Part shown: positions 53,969 to 62,213 of the stretch, piece after piece
Position numbering within the stretch: the first letter of the stretch is position 1
Layout of the letters: each line of letters opens with the position of its first letter
DNA from: Paracoccaceae bacterium
GTDB taxonomy: Bacteria > Pseudomonadota > Alphaproteobacteria > Rhodobacterales > Rhodobacteraceae
Direction of reading: 5' to 3'
NCBI GenBank assembly: GCA_024304985.1
Contig: JAMWZC010000002.1
Coordinates: forward strand, 248,001 to 312,000
Length of the DNA: 64,000 bases
Position numbers and translations under genes: made by a program
The notes under the pieces: model-generated
What the model was told of the DNA's origin: nothing
The model's database searches: none
Seen by the model: the letters and a program-made list of their open reading frames with translations, nothing else

Positions 53969-54898
53969 TCAGATCCACGAATTGCTGATGCTCTTCGAGA
54001 CGACTTCGGTTCTCTCGTGCAATTTATCCCGCAAGAGGTGAGCATATCTCTGGGTCATCGTGATATTTGAATGCCCCAGAAGTCTCTGCACCTCGTAGAT
54101 GCTGACTTCGTTATTGATGAGAAGGCTTGCATAGGTATGCCTCAAATCGTGAATACGGACATCGCTAAGGCCTTCTGATCGCACGACTTTATACCAGGCA
54201 GCATAGAAGCTGTCATACTTGGTCCTGGTTCTGGGGTTTGTGAAGACATAGCCATTCCGGGGGTCGATCGGGCCAAGGAACTCTGATTTCCGTCTGACCT
54301 TGTGAAAAGTGGAAAGAGCTTCGGAACTGAGAAAGATCTCTCTGGAGCGACCATTCTTGGAGACCGGAACGTGCCAGATCGACTTCTGCTCGTCGATATC
54401 TGACCATCGCGCGTTCCTCAACTCACCGACCCGCGCGCCGGTCAGAAGAAGAAGTTTCACGACGAAGTAAAGATAGGGATGCGGGCTGACCATACAGCCA
54501 CTTAAAAGACGACGAATTTCTGTTTGCGAAAGGAATTTTTGCGTGTAATTGCCAACGGGCAATTTTCTGACGTCGAGCTTGACGTGAAGCTGCTCCTCCA
54601 AGAAGCCCCAAACGTAGGCTAGCTTTATGATATTCATCAGAAAATCAATATGCTTGTTGATCGTCGAATTCTTGAGCCTTTTCTCGACCTGTTTATTTCG
54701 CCAATCGTTCACTTTACGTGATGAAATCTCGGATATCGGAATGTTTCCAAAGTCTTCAACAATATGTTTGGCATAAGTCAGGCGATCGTCCCGCCCTCTC
54801 TTTTTCGTCACGATGGCATTCGGCAAATACTGATCGTAAAAAAATTCATTCATCGTGATCGCAACAGTTATACTGTCGTTCTTTTTTCTCCAAAACAT
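53969..54898 (-). CDS. Tyrosine recombinase / phage-type integrase
   Basis: 309 residues from the ATG at 54898 (a GTG at 54907 would add three). An N-terminal core-binding domain (about 10-90) leads to the catalytic domain with the full set: Arg in TGARVGELR, Lys in VSKNGRSRE, HDLRHTY, and the final GHSNITMTQRYAHL with His and the Tyr nucleophile. It therefore looks active. The 5' half is AT-rich and lysine-rich, unlike the neighbours, which suggests transfer. It sits with its 3' end towards tRNA-Thr, the usual layout of an element integrated in a tRNA. However, no other element genes and no second copy of the tRNA end occur in the window. Confidence 0.92.
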   Translation of the reverse strand: MFWRKKNDSITVAITMNEFFYDQYLPNAIVTKKRGRDDRLTYAKHIVEDFGNIPISEISSRKVNDWRNKQVEKRLKNSTINKHIDFLMNIIKLAYVWGFLEEQLHVKLDVRKLPVGNYTQKFLSQTEIRRLLSGCMVSPHPYLYFVVKLLLLTGARVGELRNARWSDIDEQKSIWHVPVSKNGRSREIFLSSEALSTFHKVRRKSEFLGPIDPRNGYVFTNPRTRTKYDSFYAAWYKVVRSEGLSDVRIHDLRHTYASLLINNEVSIYEVQRLLGHSNITMTQRYAHLLRDKLHERTEVVSKSISNSWI

Positions 54899-54953
54899 TC
54901 CTGTCACTCCGATCCAGAAATCCCTGGGTAAAACCCCCTCACTCGAAAAACCC

Positions 54954-56323: not shown

Positions 56324-56601
56324 CACGGCCACTCGATTGGCTGAGTGACTCACGCACTTGCCCGGATGATATTTTCCGACCCTTGCGGCTTGAATGCACG
56401 CCGCTGTCACCGTGATGCGGTGGTCTTGCGCCTCGGTGGCACGTGACAGGTCTGCCCTCTTTGTCGCGTTGCGCCATCTGGGATGCGGGCACGACCTGCC
56501 GCGCCCCATGCAGCCGGAAATACCTCCAATTGAAGCTGTTAACCCCTGAGCAACTGCTTGGCGGTTATGCCTGATCCCGGGTGAGTAAGAAGGTGGTGGA
56601 G
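56324..56601. promoter_or_regulatory. Porin/motB divergent spacer
   Basis: These 278 bp hold no convincing gene. Minus-strand TTGGAC and TACGGT, 17 bp apart, just before the porin signal codons are a possible promoter. A weak CtrA-like half site (TTAA, 56539-56542) lies 60 bp before motB within GCTGTTAACCCCTGA, a string that recurs with one extra A before flgE. Confidence 0.35.
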
Positions 56602-57426
56602 ATGGGCACGCAATCCAATGCGGCGCCAGTCATCATCAAGCGGAAGAAGATCATAGCGGGCGGTCACCACGGGGGGGCGTGGAAGGTCGCTTATGCCGAC
56701 TTCGTGACGGCGATGATGGCCTTCTTCATGCTGATGTGGCTGCTGAACGCGACAACAGAGCAACAGCGCAAGGGGCTTGCCGACTACTTCCAGCCGACGA
56801 TTGCGATCAGCAGGGTCTCGGGCGGGGCGGACAGCGCATTCGGCGGCGACAGCATCTTTTCCGAGGATGTGAAGCCAACCGTCGGCACAGGTGCAACAAG
56901 CCTGCGTCCCACTGAAAGTGACCGAGCCAAAGGGGCAGTATCCGCAGAGGCCGATGCGAAAACCGAACTTCAGAAGGTCGAGGAGGCTTTGCTTGGGCTG
57001 GGTGGTCAAAGCGCCATCGAGGCTACTGCTCTCAAGCATGTGGTTACACGGGTCACGGACGAAGGATTGGTCGTCGAACTTTTCGACCTCCCCGATGCTG
57101 TCCTGTTCGAGGAGGGGTCTGACCGCCCGACCCAGTTGCTTGTGGTCCTGTCGCGGATGATCCGCGAAGCGTTTGCTCTTGTCATCAACCCTGTCGCGAT
57201 CGAGGGGCATGTGATGTCGCGCCCGGTTGTCTTTCTTGAGAACCCTGTGTGGGAACTTTCGACCAGCCGCGCCGACAGGATGCGCCTGATGCTGCAGGCG
57301 GATGGCATGGAGAGCACCCGGATGTCCCGTGTGACGGGCCATGCCGATCGGGAACTGGCCGTCGAGAACCCGCTCTCTACCCGCAACAACAGGTTGGAGG
57401 TCATTCTTCTGACGGAGATGGAATGA
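56602..57426 (+). CDS. motB: Flagellar motor stator protein MotB
   Basis: 274 residues from the ATG at 56602; a GTG at 56581 would add seven. The start (VIIKRKKIIAGGHHGGAWKV) is typical of alphaproteobacterial MotB. The single membrane helix (about 30-52, AYADFVTAMMAFFMLMW) contains the proton-binding Asp. The periplasmic OmpA-like domain reaches VTGHADRELAVENPLSTRNN near the end, which binds peptidoglycan. It pairs with MotA, which is not in this window. It is followed by flgE after 114 bp. Confidence 0.93.
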   Translation: MGTQSNAAPVIIKRKKIIAGGHHGGAWKVAYADFVTAMMAFFMLMWLLNATTEQQRKGLADYFQPTIAISRVSGGADSAFGGDSIFSEDVKPTVGTGATSLRPTESDRAKGAVSAEADAKTELQKVEEALLGLGGQSAIEATALKHVVTRVTDEGLVVELFDLPDAVLFEEGSDRPTQLLVVLSRMIREAFALVINPVAIEGHVMSRPVVFLENPVWELSTSRADRMRLMLQADGMESTRMSRVTGHADRELAVENPLSTRNNRLEVILLTEME

Positions 57427-57540: not shown

Positions 57541-59040
57541 ATGACAATTTCCTCTTCCCTGAATGCTGGCGTCGCCGGCCTGTCTGTCAATGCAAGTCGG
57601 CTTGCCGCGATTTCGGACAATATCGCAAACTCCGCCACCTTTGGTTACAAACGCATGGAAGCCGATTTTCATTCGATGGTGATCTCGTCGAACGGTGGCA
57701 GCTATTCCGCCGGTGGTGTGCGGGTGACATCCCAGCGGTTGATCGACCAACGTGGTTCGCTTGTCTCGACAAGTAATCCCACAGATCTTTCTGTGCGTGG
57801 CCGCGGTTTTCTGCCGGTTGCCTCGGCGTCCGAGATCGCGGTCGGCAATGGTCAGCTGATGCTTCTCACAACAACCGGCTCATTTCGGACAGATGACGAA
57901 GGGTTCCTGCGAACAGAGTCCAATCTGGTTCTGCTGGGTTGGCCCGCCTTGCCAGATGGAAGCATTCCCCCGGTACCCCGCGATACCAGTGCCGGACTGC
58001 GCCCTGTGCAAATCAACGTCAACCAGTTCACAGGAGACCCGACAACCCGCCTGAGCCTTGGCGTGAACCTGCCCGCGACCGAGACCGCTTCGACAGGAAC
58101 AGGACAATCACGAGAACTGTCGGTCGAGTATTTCGGCAATCTTGGAACATCCGAAAGCCTGATGATCGACTATCAGCCCACGGTCCCGGCCAGCGGTTCC
58201 TCCAACCAATGGACAATGACTATCCGTGACACAGCCTCTGCCAACGCCGTGGTTGGGCAATATACGCTCGATTTCGATGATGGGCGCATCGCAGGGGGCA
58301 CTCTGAACGCAGTCACAACGCTGGCTGGCGGGGCTTATGATGCCCAGACCGGGTCATTGATCGTCAATGTCGCTGGCGGCCCGATGGAGATCAATATCGG
58401 CCGTATCGGCGCCACTGACGGACTCACGCAACTGTCAAACAGCTTTGCTCCGGTGTCCATTTCCAAGGACGGCTCTCCTGTCGGAAACATGACCTCGGTC
58501 GAAGTGGACGCGAACGGTTTTGTTCACGCCTTCTTCGATACTGGCATCACGCGACGCATCTTCCAGATTCCGTTGGTGGATATGCCCAATCCCAATGGAA
58601 TGGTCGCCCTGGATGAACAGACTTATGTCCCCTCGCCGGAAAGCGGAACCTACTTCCTATGGGATGCGGGTGACGGACCGACAGGTGACATCGTTGCCTT
58701 CGCACGTGAGGAATCAGCCACCGATGTAGCGGGCGAACTGACCGACATGATCCAGACACAGCGCGCCTACTCGTCCAATGCCAAGGTCATTCAGACGGTG
58801 GCATTGTCCTTGGCGGTCCCTACCGACTTGCCGGTCGAGATCATATCCTGCGTCTTGCCCAGATTGGCATTGATGGATTTCAGGGTTTGCAGCGCGACCA
58901 TCGCGCCGTTATTGGTCAGAATGCTTGACATATTTCAGGTTCCTTTTTGCATGTTGAGCGCCTTTTGCGCGTTCGATTGTGCCGCCCCCACAAGAACGAC
59001 TGCCTGCCTTCTGACGTTTGCAGGTCATGGGGTTCCATGA
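57541..59040 (+). CDS. flgE: Flagellar hook protein FlgE, C-terminus replaced by antisense flagellin sequence
   Basis: The frame gives 499 residues from the ATG at 57541. Residues 1-420 are a normal FlgE: N-terminal helix MTISSSLNAGVAGLSVNASR and SDNIANSATFGYKR, then variable D1-D2 domains, and near the end ELTDMIQTQRAYSSNAKVIQ. At residue 420 (58800) the family sequence stops about a dozen residues early. The next 79 residues are the translated antisense strand and leader of a flagellin gene. The lost segment belongs to the C-terminal helix needed for hook assembly and recognition, so the protein is probably not functional. The upstream CtrA-like site and ribosome binding site are intact. 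Confidence 0.85.
   Translation: MTISSSLNAGVAGLSVNASRLAAISDNIANSATFGYKRMEADFHSMVISSNGGSYSAGGVRVTSQRLIDQRGSLVSTSNPTDLSVRGRGFLPVASASEIAVGNGQLMLLTTTGSFRTDDEGFLRTESNLVLLGWPALPDGSIPPVPRDTSAGLRPVQINVNQFTGDPTTRLSLGVNLPATETASTGTGQSRELSVEYFGNLGTSESLMIDYQPTVPASGSSNQWTMTIRDTASANAVVGQYTLDFDDGRIAGGTLNAVTTLAGGAYDAQTGSLIVNVAGGPMEINIGRIGATDGLTQLSNSFAPVSISKDGSPVGNMTSVEVDANGFVHAFFDTGITRRIFQIPLVDMPNPNGMVALDEQTYVPSPESGTYFLWDAGDGPTGDIVAFAREESATDVAGELTDMIQTQRAYSSNAKVIQTVALSLAVPTDLPVEIISCVLPRLALMDFRVCSATIAPLLVRMLDIFQVPFCMLSAFCAFDCAAPTRTTACLLTFAGHGVP
58791..58931 (-). pseudogene. fliC: Flagellin (fliC) remnant, first 46 codons only
   Basis: On the minus strand an ATG at 58931, behind aaagga, opens a frame that begins MSSILTNNGAMVALQTLKSI and continues through ISTGKSVGTAKDNATV, the typical N-terminus of Rhodobacterales flagellin. 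At the flgE junction it meets an immediate TGA (58793-58791). The remaining flagellin, well over 200 residues, is absent. The breakpoint lies in the 10-bp string cagacggtgg (58792-58801), which fits both genes. Confidence 0.88.
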
Positions 59041-59142: not shown

Positions 59143-59526
59143 CTATGCACGCTTCTCAACCTGGCCGGAACGAAGGCTGGTGATGACGGTTCTCCGGCCG
59201 CTTTGATCATAGGTGTCCAATGTGTCGCGGATCCGGCGCAACGCTGCCATACGATCTACAGCGGCACGGATACCATCCATTGCGCCATCAATAAGCACAT
59301 GATTTCGCATGGCTTTTTCGCGAACTGCACTGAAATCATCGGCCTGCTCGCTCTGAACGGCATGCAGCGCATCAATCAGGCGTTCCTTCTCGCGCAGACC
59401 GCGCGAGATCGCGTCGAGATCGCCATCAAGTAGAGCCCTGCGCTCTTTGTCCAGAAGCTCGTCAAGATTGGCAAGGATCACCGCGGCCTGATCCAGCTTG
59501 CCGGGAGTTGTGTCGATCTCAGACAT
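59143..59526 (-). CDS. flgN: FlgN-like flagellar export chaperone
   Basis: 127 residues, nearly all helix, with charged heptads (LANLDELLDKERRALLDGDLD near 18-38). Length, helicity and the position beside flgJ fit FlgN, the chaperone of FlgK and FlgL, whose genes are not seen here. Sequence identity within this family is low, so the name rests largely on context. The ATG overlaps the flgJ stop by 8 bp. Confidence 0.65.
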   Translation of the reverse strand: MSEIDTTPGKLDQAAVILANLDELLDKERRALLDGDLDAISRGLREKERLIDALHAVQSEQADDFSAVREKAMRNHVLIDGAMDGIRAAVDRMAALRRIRDTLDTYDQSGRRTVITSLRSGQVEKRA

Positions 59527-59827
59527 TCTGACGCTCCTTCAATGCGTGATACAGCGATTCTGACAGTCCGATTCCGCCGGCTTTGACCATGGTCTCGGCC
59601 TGCGATTGGAGCAGAAAGGACGCAAACTGCTCTTCGCCGATGCCGCCCCCAAACGCGGTGCCTGTGCGTCCAAGTCCGGCTGATTTCAACATTTCAGCTA
59701 GAAAACTTGCCTCCAGCTGCTGAGCAGCCTTGCGCAGGGGATCGTGGGCAACGCCTTGCTTCAAAGCGAGTGGACCAGATCGGTCATGGGTCTGGGTCGG
59801 TGCGACGAATGTAAGGGCAAGGGACAT
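59519..59827 (-). CDS. flgJ: Rod-binding protein FlgJ (N-terminal domain only)
   Basis: 102 residues from the ATG at 59827. The rod-binding domain is recognised by KAAQQLEASFLAEMLKSAG near residue 33 and the end EEQFASFLLQSQAETMVKAGG. It lacks the muramidase domain of enterobacterial FlgJ, as is normal in alphaproteobacteria. It helps assemble the flagellar rod in the periplasm. It shares a 108-bp divergent spacer with fliK. Confidence 0.85.
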   Translation of the reverse strand: MSLALTFVAPTQTHDRSGPLALKQGVAHDPLRKAAQQLEASFLAEMLKSAGLGRTGTAFGGGIGEEQFASFLLQSQAETMVKAGGIGLSESLYHALKERQNV

Positions 59828-59874
59828 GAGGTTTCTCCAATTGAAGGGATTTTTTTGATCTTGCGCCTTCAGCG

Positions 59875-59890
59875 GTAAAGAACCGGTAAC
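59875..59890 (+). promoter_or_regulatory. CtrA-like box between flgJ and fliK
   Basis: GTAA (59875-59878), seven bases, GTAAC (59886-59890): the right spacing with one mismatch in each half. It is midway between the divergent flgJ and fliK starts. Confidence 0.35.
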
Positions 59891-59935
59891 CAGACACATG
59901 CAATCTTGGGGACTGATCGAAATCCGGGGTGCTTC

Positions 59936-61549
59936 ATGTCACTGACCGCAACACACGCAATGGGACTACTGCCAATCACCCATCTGCCTCATGCCGTGAC
60001 GCAGCCGGATGTCCGGGCAGCTTTGTCGAACGCGTTCCCGGGCGCATCCGATCGTGCTCCTGTGGATTTCTCCCTGATATTCACGATGGACCTGACGGAA
60101 GAGGCGCCTGCCTCCGGCTTTATGTCGGACGATATGGTTGACCTTCAAGATAGCGACGAAACAGTCACTAATTCGGCTGAAACTCCGCAAGAGCCGCTCT
60201 TGGAACCAATGGATCACGAAAGGCAGGATTCTATGTCTGGGGACATCCACGATGATCAGCAAAGGGATCAAGTCGTGCCGCCCCAGCAAACGGGTCAAGG
60301 CATGGGCCCGTTGGTTCTAACGCCATTGGGTGACCTTCACCTTCGTGTTGTGTCTTCGGATCACCCAGGTGATCCGGACGCTGGGGTGTCATCGGTGGAG
60401 GCCATCGGGATTTCGGTTGCTAGCCGACTTCGACACGCCCCGTCTTGGGGTCCAGTTCTGCCCTTGCCTGACGGTGAAAGGCCGCGTGATCCGGTTCTTC
60501 AAGGTCCCACGCGCACTCCGGATGCGGTTCAGGCTCCTGTCAATGGCACGCATTCTGACCCGGCTACCACTGCCATTCAGTCACCCGACCGGCCTCTGCG
60601 TCTCATAGCGCCAAGTGACGGCATGGCGGCACCGCGGGAAAGGATCGCCCAAGGGGATGTTTTTCTGTCGGCACAGCGTGAACAAAAGGTTCTGCCGTAC
60701 CACGCTACTGAAACTTTGGCCGATCCGTCACCAAACTCCAATCACGCGTCTGAACCCGAGGTTGGTCTACCGCGCAAGTCGATAATGAGCGGCACCGCAA
60801 CTCCAAATGGGCTGATGCTTCGGGAAGCGCTCCAAAATCCTGTGAAGCCAAGTAATGCAGAACTGTCGCCTCCTGTCCAAACTGGCGTCGTATCTCTTTC
60901 TGAACTGACCTTGGCTTCACAGAAGGAACTACCGGCCAGTCCTCGGGTTGACGGGAACGGAGGGGGCGTTCCACCCGTCGTGCAGATGGCCGGCGCACTT
61001 TTCGTGACACCAACTCGCGCAATCACTCAGGCAAATCTGTTTCCGTTGGAAAGCACGCGATCCGCCGAGATGGATACTCCTTCACAAGACAACCTCGGTC
61101 TGTTGATAGCTGCGCCATCGTCCACGTCATTGTTGCCCGAAGTGCTTAACACGCGCCCTGAGAACCCGCGCCCGGTTCTTCAACAGTTGCTTGATGCAAG
61201 CGTCCGAGCGATCGAGCGACCGGTTGATCTGCATCTTAATCCCGAGGAACTGGGGCGAGTGCGGATCAGCATGACGATGAGCGATGGGGTGATCACGATG
61301 ACTGTTCTGGCGGAGCGGTCCGAGACCTTGGATCTCATGCGTCGCCACAGTGATCAGTTGGCGCAGGAACTGCGACAACTGGGCTATGGCACGATCAACT
61401 TTTCTTTTGGACAGAGAGAAGGCGGAAAGGACGAGCGAACAGACGGCCAGCCAAGTGAGTCCCTGTCCGATCTGCCCGAGGCGACGGTAGCTGTTTTGCC
61501 CCGATACGAGCCAAAACTTCACGAATCCGGCCTTGATATCAGGGTTTAG
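59936..61549 (+). CDS. fliK: Flagellar hook-length control protein FliK
   Basis: 537 residues from the ATG at 59936. The long N-terminal part (1-410) is low in complexity, rich in Pro, Ser, Gln and Asp, as expected of the molecular ruler. The conserved C-terminal domain (about 420-505) has LHLNPEELGRVRISM and LRQLGYGTINFSFG. It sets hook length by switching FlhB export specificity. flgD starts 10 bp after its stop. Confidence 0.9.
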   Translation: MSLTATHAMGLLPITHLPHAVTQPDVRAALSNAFPGASDRAPVDFSLIFTMDLTEEAPASGFMSDDMVDLQDSDETVTNSAETPQEPLLEPMDHERQDSMSGDIHDDQQRDQVVPPQQTGQGMGPLVLTPLGDLHLRVVSSDHPGDPDAGVSSVEAIGISVASRLRHAPSWGPVLPLPDGERPRDPVLQGPTRTPDAVQAPVNGTHSDPATTAIQSPDRPLRLIAPSDGMAAPRERIAQGDVFLSAQREQKVLPYHATETLADPSPNSNHASEPEVGLPRKSIMSGTATPNGLMLREALQNPVKPSNAELSPPVQTGVVSLSELTLASQKELPASPRVDGNGGGVPPVVQMAGALFVTPTRAITQANLFPLESTRSAEMDTPSQDNLGLLIAAPSSTSLLPEVLNTRPENPRPVLQQLLDASVRAIERPVDLHLNPEELGRVRISMTMSDGVITMTVLAERSETLDLMRRHSDQLAQELRQLGYGTINFSFGQREGGKDERTDGQPSESLSDLPEATVAVLPRYEPKLHESGLDIRV

Positions 61550-61559
61550 GGAGACTGAC

Positions 61560-62213
61560 ATGACAACGATAGACACACTTGGGCCCCCTTTTCAGACGCG
61601 TGTGGAACCACCTGCGCCGAAAACTGTCATCAACTCGGATTTTGAAACCTTCCTGAAAATGCTGACTGCACAACTCAAGAATCAGGATCCACTCAATCCG
61701 ATCGAATCGAACGATTTCGCAGTTCAACTGGCCACTTTCTCATCGGTCGAGCAGCAGGTTCTGACGAATGATCTTTTGTCCGGGCTGTCTGGTCAGATGG
61801 GGCAGATGGGCATGGCACAACTGGCCGCTTGGGTTGGAATGGAAGCACGCGCACCGATCCCCGCGCGGTTTGAGGGTTTTCCGGTCACGCTGCAGACTAG
61901 CCCCCTCGCCACCGCGGACTCAGCGCGCCTAGTGGTGCGCAACGAAGGCGGCAATGTGGTTCAGACACTCGCCATACCGAACAGGCCGGAAAGTTATCGG
62001 TGGAGCGGTCAGGATGCTTCGGGCCAAAGCCTGCCACCCGGACTCTACAGTTTTGAAGTGGAAAGCTACTTCCAGAATGACTTGCAGGGCACCAGTGTTC
62101 CGGATGTCTACGATCGTATCGTTGAGGCCCGCAGTGATGCTGGTCGCACCATTCTTGTGATGGAGGGCGGAGCGACGGTTGATGCCGCCAGGGTGACGGC
62201 GCTGCGCAACTAG
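61560..62213 (+). CDS. flgD: Flagellar hook-capping protein FlgD
   Basis: 217 residues from the ATG at 61560. The N-terminal signature FETFLKMLTAQLKNQDPLNP near residue 29 and SNDFAVQLATFSSVEQQ are typical. The C-terminal FlgD Ig-like/tudor part includes YRWSGQDASGQSLPPGLYSF. It forms the scaffold cap on which FlgE subunits assemble. It is cotranscribed with fliK and appears intact, in contrast to flgE. Confidence 0.95.
   Translation: MTTIDTLGPPFQTRVEPPAPKTVINSDFETFLKMLTAQLKNQDPLNPIESNDFAVQLATFSSVEQQVLTNDLLSGLSGQMGQMGMAQLAAWVGMEARAPIPARFEGFPVTLQTSPLATADSARLVVRNEGGNVVQTLAIPNRPESYRWSGQDASGQSLPPGLYSFEVESYFQNDLQGTSVPDVYDRIVEARSDAGRTILVMEGGATVDAARVTALRN

Follow-up and report, generated by a model that had tools for sequence, protein, structure and literature searches.

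A recurrent, position-specific deletion joins the hook gene flgE to the flagellin gene fliC in Rhodobacteraceae genomes

The same crossover between the hook gene flgE and the convergent flagellin gene fliC is present in 18 genomes from 18 genera (that of the window and 17 others), with an outcome that is the same within about 2 bp; we regard this recurrent, position-specific deletion as real with near certainty. The window is the whole stretch of DNA that was analysed, 64,000 nucleotides of contig JAMWZC010000002.1 (positions 248,001 to 312,000) in assembly GCA_024304985.1 of a Paracoccaceae bacterium. The deletion arose independently at least 12 times, so that the 18 carriers are mostly separate events, and its most likely cause is a site-directed excision between fixed points. 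An earlier note on the window, made from its sequence, overlooked the recurrence; the junction is not private to the window strain. The window junction and all comparisons rest on deposited assemblies.

In the window, the plus-strand flgE frame that begins at 57541 is normal up to Gln418-Thr419-Val420 (Val420 being 58798-58800), and from 58802 onward the plus strand carries flagellin codons 44 to 1 in complement, their ATG lying at 58931. Past Val420 the flgE frame stays open through the complemented flagellin start until a stop at 59038-59040; the minus-strand flagellin frame from 58931 reads MSSILTNNGAMVALQTLKSINANLGKTQDMISTGKSVGTAKDNATV followed by a stop. The antisense fusion of flgE to the start of a flagellin gene, as the earlier note had it, is thus real, and the flagellin frame of 46 codons is borne out. 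In Pfam terms, the Flg_bbr_C match of the window FlgE ends at profile position 35 of 46, inside the C-terminal domain, and the window flagellin retains positions 1-41 of the 139 of Flagellin_N; the flgE is 88-89% identical to its nearest relatives. Since Thr45 and Val46 of the flagellin frame are encoded by flgE sequence, the parental overlap is 2 bp, and 58800-58801 (GG) are the only bases assignable to either parent. Neither an insertion sequence nor a scar of one is found at the junction, and flgE and fliC directly abut in 18 of 18 genomes. Read from the sequence, the window junction is a deletion joining the hook gene to the flagellin gene; chance is excluded for the fusion because the same junction is found in a further 17 genomes.

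The features of the remnant are collected in Table 1. The remnant is chromosomal and adjoins ubiB, with motB and flgE at one end and fliC, flgN, flgJ, fliK and flgD at the other, a gene order of the fla1 type as set out in the available text of PMC11974857. The four leftovers named in the earlier note (motB, flgJ, fliK and flgD) are all present, and flgN with them. A tyrosine integrase of phage type (Phage_integrase, E 4.6e-34) lies a few genes upstream of the remnant at 53969-54907 on the minus strand, adjoining a porin gene; no link between this integrase and the flagellar deletion was shown.

Table 1. Features of the fla1 remnant in the window
Feature	Position	Strand	Evidence and remarks
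motB, left-flank fla1 leftover, open frame	56581-57426	+	MotB_plug E 1.2e-19; position same in intact relatives
flgE codons 1-420, truncated hook gene; meaningless tail to 59040	57541-58800	+	Flg_bbr_C cut at 35/46; NCBIfam FlgE
Crossover, 2 bp (GG); up to 58799 flgE, from 58802 fliC	58800-58801	.	Sequence; Thr45 absent from 35 intact flagellins; congener alignment
Truncated fliC; codons 1-44 flagellin, codons 45-46 and stop from flgE sequence	58791-58931	-	Flagellin_N 1-41; translation
flgN-like leftover	59143-59526	-	FlgN E 1.6e-6, slightly below curated cut-off; position conserved in relatives
flgJ-like (rod-binding) leftover	59519-59899	-	Rod-binding E 3e-8
fliK leftover, start codon uncertain	59906-61549	+	Flg_hook E 1.5e-16
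flgD leftover, start codon uncertain	61533-62213	+	FlgD E 9.8e-18

Intact relatives show what was lost. In six such clusters flgE and fliC are convergent and lie 25.5-29.9 kb apart, with nearly the whole fla1 cluster between them. In the congener Seohaeicola saemankumensis IOP_23 (G003) the two sites are 26.2 kb apart, and the interval holds flgK, flgL, flgI, fliP, fliN, fliH, fliF, motA, flhA, fliR and flhB, along with flgG, flgF, flgC, flgB, fliQ, fliE, fliI, flbT, flaF and others, several of these names being given from position and sequence reading without a family match. This agrees with the earlier proposal that the end of flgE, the rest of fliC and the genes between them, flgK and flgL included, were deleted. 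The window genome (3.76 Mb in 13 contigs, 98.3% complete) contains no flagellin-type match beyond the truncated one, no Flg_bbr_C protein (FlgE/F/G/K-type) other than the truncated flgE, and no FlhA; the combination that marks a functional fla1 system, an FlhA export gate with rod, hook and filament genes, is absent from it. On the genome-wide check that the earlier note had suggested, neither a FlgK-type protein nor a second flagellin is present. Because all three are missing genome-wide (another flagellin, another Flg_bbr_C protein and FlhA), the window strain is, on its gene content, very probably non-flagellated, and the same absences support the earlier expectation of a non-motile strain.

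A search for flgE relatives among named genomes gave 80 loci, seven of which, all from different genera, share both the flgE end codon and the antisense flagellin offset: Lutimaribacter saemankumensis DSM 28010, Shimia sp. CNT1-13L.2, Roseivivax halotolerans JCM 10271, a Sediminimonas MAG, a Marinibacterium MAG, an uncultured Sulfitobacter and an uncultured Rhodobacteraceae bacterium. The junction codon is the same in the window and at loci L007, L009, L030, L048, L054, L078 and L081, and the same junction is found in genomes G171, G124, G158, G146, G134, G121, G287, G301, G175 and G387, three of which (G158, G287 and G387) are single-contig assemblies. A partner-blind search used the 46-aa flagellin start alone against 296 genomes, one per genus; among the matches listed, every very short flagellin frame adjoins flgE at the same point, a contig end excepted. 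Counts of Flg_bbr_C proteins per genome revealed three additional carriers. When a profile of the fused tail was scanned over 395 genomes (394 genera), 13 full-length matches were followed by a clean gap, the lower matches listed being the antisense of intact flagellins, and no shifted flgE-fliC junction was found among the matches listed. With even sampling, the junction is thus present in 13 of 394 genera. Within the window's own genus, the fusion occurs in the window genome only, out of seven. Of the two things that the earlier note would have counted against its reading when found together in relatives, the shared arrangement does occur, and a second intact fla1 set occurs in none. Among the other 17 carriers, five have a different flagellar cluster and 12 have either no FlhA match or none that could be demonstrated. 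The second flagellar cluster of G134 (G134:C4:245087-248855), a genome without FlhA, appears to be decaying: one of its four Flg_bbr_C genes has an internal TAA.

Other losses of fla1 look different. About ten genomes keep motB-flgE-flgK-flgL-flgI, mostly as open frames, and have lost the rod, export and motor genes (loci L002, L003 and L164-L171, in genomes G001, G002, G234, G259, G257, G091, G087, G276, G285 and G117); the window's nearest sisters, L002 and L003, keep motB-flgEKLI in this way without a fla1 flagellin. The visible end points within this class are not shared: in L164:5055-5735, flgI codon 67 runs straight into flgD codon 51 with no change of orientation, which makes a different deletion junction, and in L168 the end points are the fliP end and flgN. 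The flgE-fliC pair is one loss outcome among several, and the only one seen to recur. Two further loci of the collection, L022 and L023, are apparently the same 39,770-bp contig in two MAG records (Flavobacteriia and Roseobacter), the Flavobacteriia label probably being wrong.

The flgE frame is open up to the junction in 17 of the 18 carriers, and in G287 (locus L161) the remnant flgE is frameshifted into two overlapping pieces; most of the deletions therefore look young and some older, that of G287 being old enough for decay. A flgE tree of 163 intact and 18 chimeric sequences calls for 18 changes, 12 of them required by branches with strong support. A smaller tree, built with care by maximum likelihood from 80 flgE sequences, includes eight chimeras; these take eight changes, all of them required by supported branches. 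Nine of the 17 chimeras in an early tree, which had few distant intact sequences, did cluster; since the addition of about 90 intact genera dispersed them, we treat that clustering as an effect of sampling.

These trees bear directly on one way to obtain identical end points without any special mechanism, namely a single ancient deletion allele, inherited or spread by homologous transfer (e.g. by gene transfer agents), whose junction would be identical by descent; deletion alleles need little transferred DNA. We consider this improbable, given that each chimera's flgE groups with its own lineage, that the wobble bases at the junction differ among chimeras, and that the flagellin start of the window is closest to that of its congener. 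Over flagellin codons 1-44, pairs of chimeras average 0.684 identity, chimeric-intact pairs 0.711 and intact pairs 0.741; because the flagellin starts of chimeras are no more alike than intact ones, these values argue against the spread of one allele, and similarity among the chimeric loci does not rise near the junction above that of their hosts elsewhere, as it would for a spread allele. An assembly or database artefact is scarcely credible: it has in its favour the reliance on deposited assemblies and nothing further, and against it the occurrence of the junction in isolates and MAGs from different projects and in three single-contig genomes, the genome-wide absence of the interior genes, and the frameshift decay of the leftover flgE in G287.

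The remaining alternatives turn on homology between the parental sites. The earlier note, judging from the fused sequence alone, took the string cagacggtgg for a 10-bp microhomology shared by the two genes and for the cause of the deletion. Around the site, however, intact fla1 flagellins (n=35) read N-[A/S]-[A/S]-[V/I/L]-W, with Ala or Ser at residue 45 and Thr in 0 of 35, and both intact congener flagellins read Ala-Ala-Leu-Trp (GCC GCA CTA TGG and GCG GCG CTT TGG). To the right of the crossover the window sequence and the G003 flagellin are near-identical, differing at one of the last 13-14 positions shown; to the left they agree no better than chance, with no exact run longer than 2 bp. 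By this congener alignment the parental repeat was probably 2 bp, and the 10-bp reading is not supported. A one-off deletion in the window strain between 10-bp direct repeats would need CCAGACGGTGG in a conspecific intact fliC. The junction string does fit both reading frames, but the repeat is absent from the congeneric parents and 17 other genera have the junction too, and we give this account very little credence. Elsewhere, the longest exact runs in congener-based reconstructions are 5 bp (L007), 3 bp (L009) and 5 bp (L054), and the exact repeat at the two sites of six intact clusters is 4-6 bp, a match that is exceeded in 0.6-5% of 60-bp window pairs drawn at random from these regions. 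Repeats of 4-6 bp at the two sites are unremarkable, and a parental repeat longer than chance, as expected of microhomology-mediated deletion, was not found. All chimeras carry Thr45, which places the crossover at the far edge of the existing similarity. This is accounted for by the main rival of a directed enzyme, a switch of template during replication, or joining by short homology, at an imperfect but conserved direct repeat (CARACNGTNG in flgE, CCANNNNGMNG in the complement of fliC): a nascent flgE strand ending in GTNG would re-prime on fliC, mismatches would keep the flgE version, and the crossover would fall at the edge, so that Thr45 is always derived from flgE. Conservation of both protein stretches would account for the presence of the repeat in every species, and many intact fliC genes read GTCTGG, giving a match of up to 5-6 bp in a partly similar stretch. 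The window's congeners, with Ala-Leu-Trp and runs of only 2 bp, leave the window case unexplained, however; thousands of window pairs from the same regions match longer or better and yet lack recurrent use; and simple annealing should often give Ala45, which is seen in 0 of 18. We hold template switching to be a real possibility, less probable than a directed enzyme, with what probability remains going to other causes.

The explanation that we favour is directed excision. What the window carries is a single case of a deletion of the ancestral Rhodobacteraceae fla1 cluster that recurs at a fixed position: a point in flgE just after Val420 (within V420/D421) is joined to a point in the convergent fliC between codons 45 and 44, with the loss of about 26 kb. 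From end points that are fixed and used as a pair every time, at negligible homology, we infer a site-directed activity, which would cut or join the two sites once they had been brought together. This could be a recombinase of the serine type, with a 2-bp crossover, acting on sites that are conserved as protein and not identical; alternatively, a nuclease followed by end joining may be responsible. Serine-type recombinases tolerate dissimilar sites and exchange at 2 bp, and such an enzyme would fit the anatomy of the junction. Fixed, paired crossover points used repeatedly, here in 18 genomes with at least 12 forced changes, are one of the marks of conservative site-specific recombination. Cells carrying the deletion would be left permanently non-flagellated unless another cluster is present. 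To the whole of this explanation, including a dedicated or borrowed site-specific enzyme that makes the deletion, we give slightly less than even weight.

The sites themselves have few fixed bases in common. The C-terminal stretch of about 29 residues of fla1 FlgE (codons 404-432 in 72 intact loci) is almost invariant family-wide, with synonymous sites varying freely. There is no clear drop in synonymous variation at the flgE or the fliC site, and no energy minimum for stable hairpins at the junction (60 flgE and 35 fliC sequences); since synonymous variation is not markedly reduced and folding is not stable at the sites, a recognition signal at the nucleotide level is not visible. Neither 395 genomes nor viral contigs yielded a reciprocal (circle) junction, and a lost circle would leave none; the one candidate, in G233, turned out to be an intact flgE that has Thr-Ala in place of Thr-Val. 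Viral contigs held no phage or mobile-element copies of the flgE site, the fliC site or the junction. Selection for a fusion protein was considered and is unlikely, because the post-junction tails (15 to 162 codons) and the flagellin frames (46 to 122 aa) vary widely.

A bolder proposal is that a site-specific excision system of the Rhodobacteraceae removes the flagellar cluster between the fixed flgE and fliC points and acts in some cells as an irreversible, one-way motility switch. We rate it as unlikely; if true, each of the 18 genomes would stand for a lineage with the excised state fixed. The loss of flagella is commonly put down to random decay, and an exact 26-kb junction that recurs at least 12 times without the usual repeats points to an unrecognised directed process, one that is testable since PCR can count the junction in cultures of any motile roseobacter. 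The junction is also a simple marker for predicting non-motile strains. Our literature searches, whose coverage left subscription journals mostly outside, found no published account of this junction, or of any flagellar deletion that is recurrent, poor in homology and exact to the base.

Among known systems, programmed or site-specific excision is exemplified by XisA-type element excision and by serine-recombinase attB x attP reactions. Like the deletion described here, these have fixed, paired end points and delete the DNA between direct sites, and serine recombinases share the crossover of about 2 bp; they differ in that no recombinase, identical repeats or circle was found here, and in that the excised DNA is a core gene cluster and not an element. 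Hot spots of microhomology or slippage give recurrent large deletions with short overlap, whereas here the parental sites match over no more than 2-6 bp, and the region offers many better matches that are left unused. In Xanthomonas, about 5% of strains have lost most of their flagellar genes through large deletions; these strains are non-motile and coexist with motile ones, and the 33 kb flagellar deletion of X. fuscans 4834-R carries a copy of the insertion sequence ISXfu2 (PMC3826837). Those deletion patterns vary by strain, and the one described comes with ISXfu2, whereas the flgE-fliC deletion has no insertion sequence and shows one pattern across genera. Closest to our case are the sporadic, repeated and independent losses of the vertically inherited fla1 cluster in Rhodobacterales, which concern the same cluster and the same family; the available text of these reports counts absences and describes no remnant, junction or shared end points (PMC11974857 / PMC12363192). 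The flgE-fliC deletion accounts for part of these reported sporadic fla1 losses in the group.
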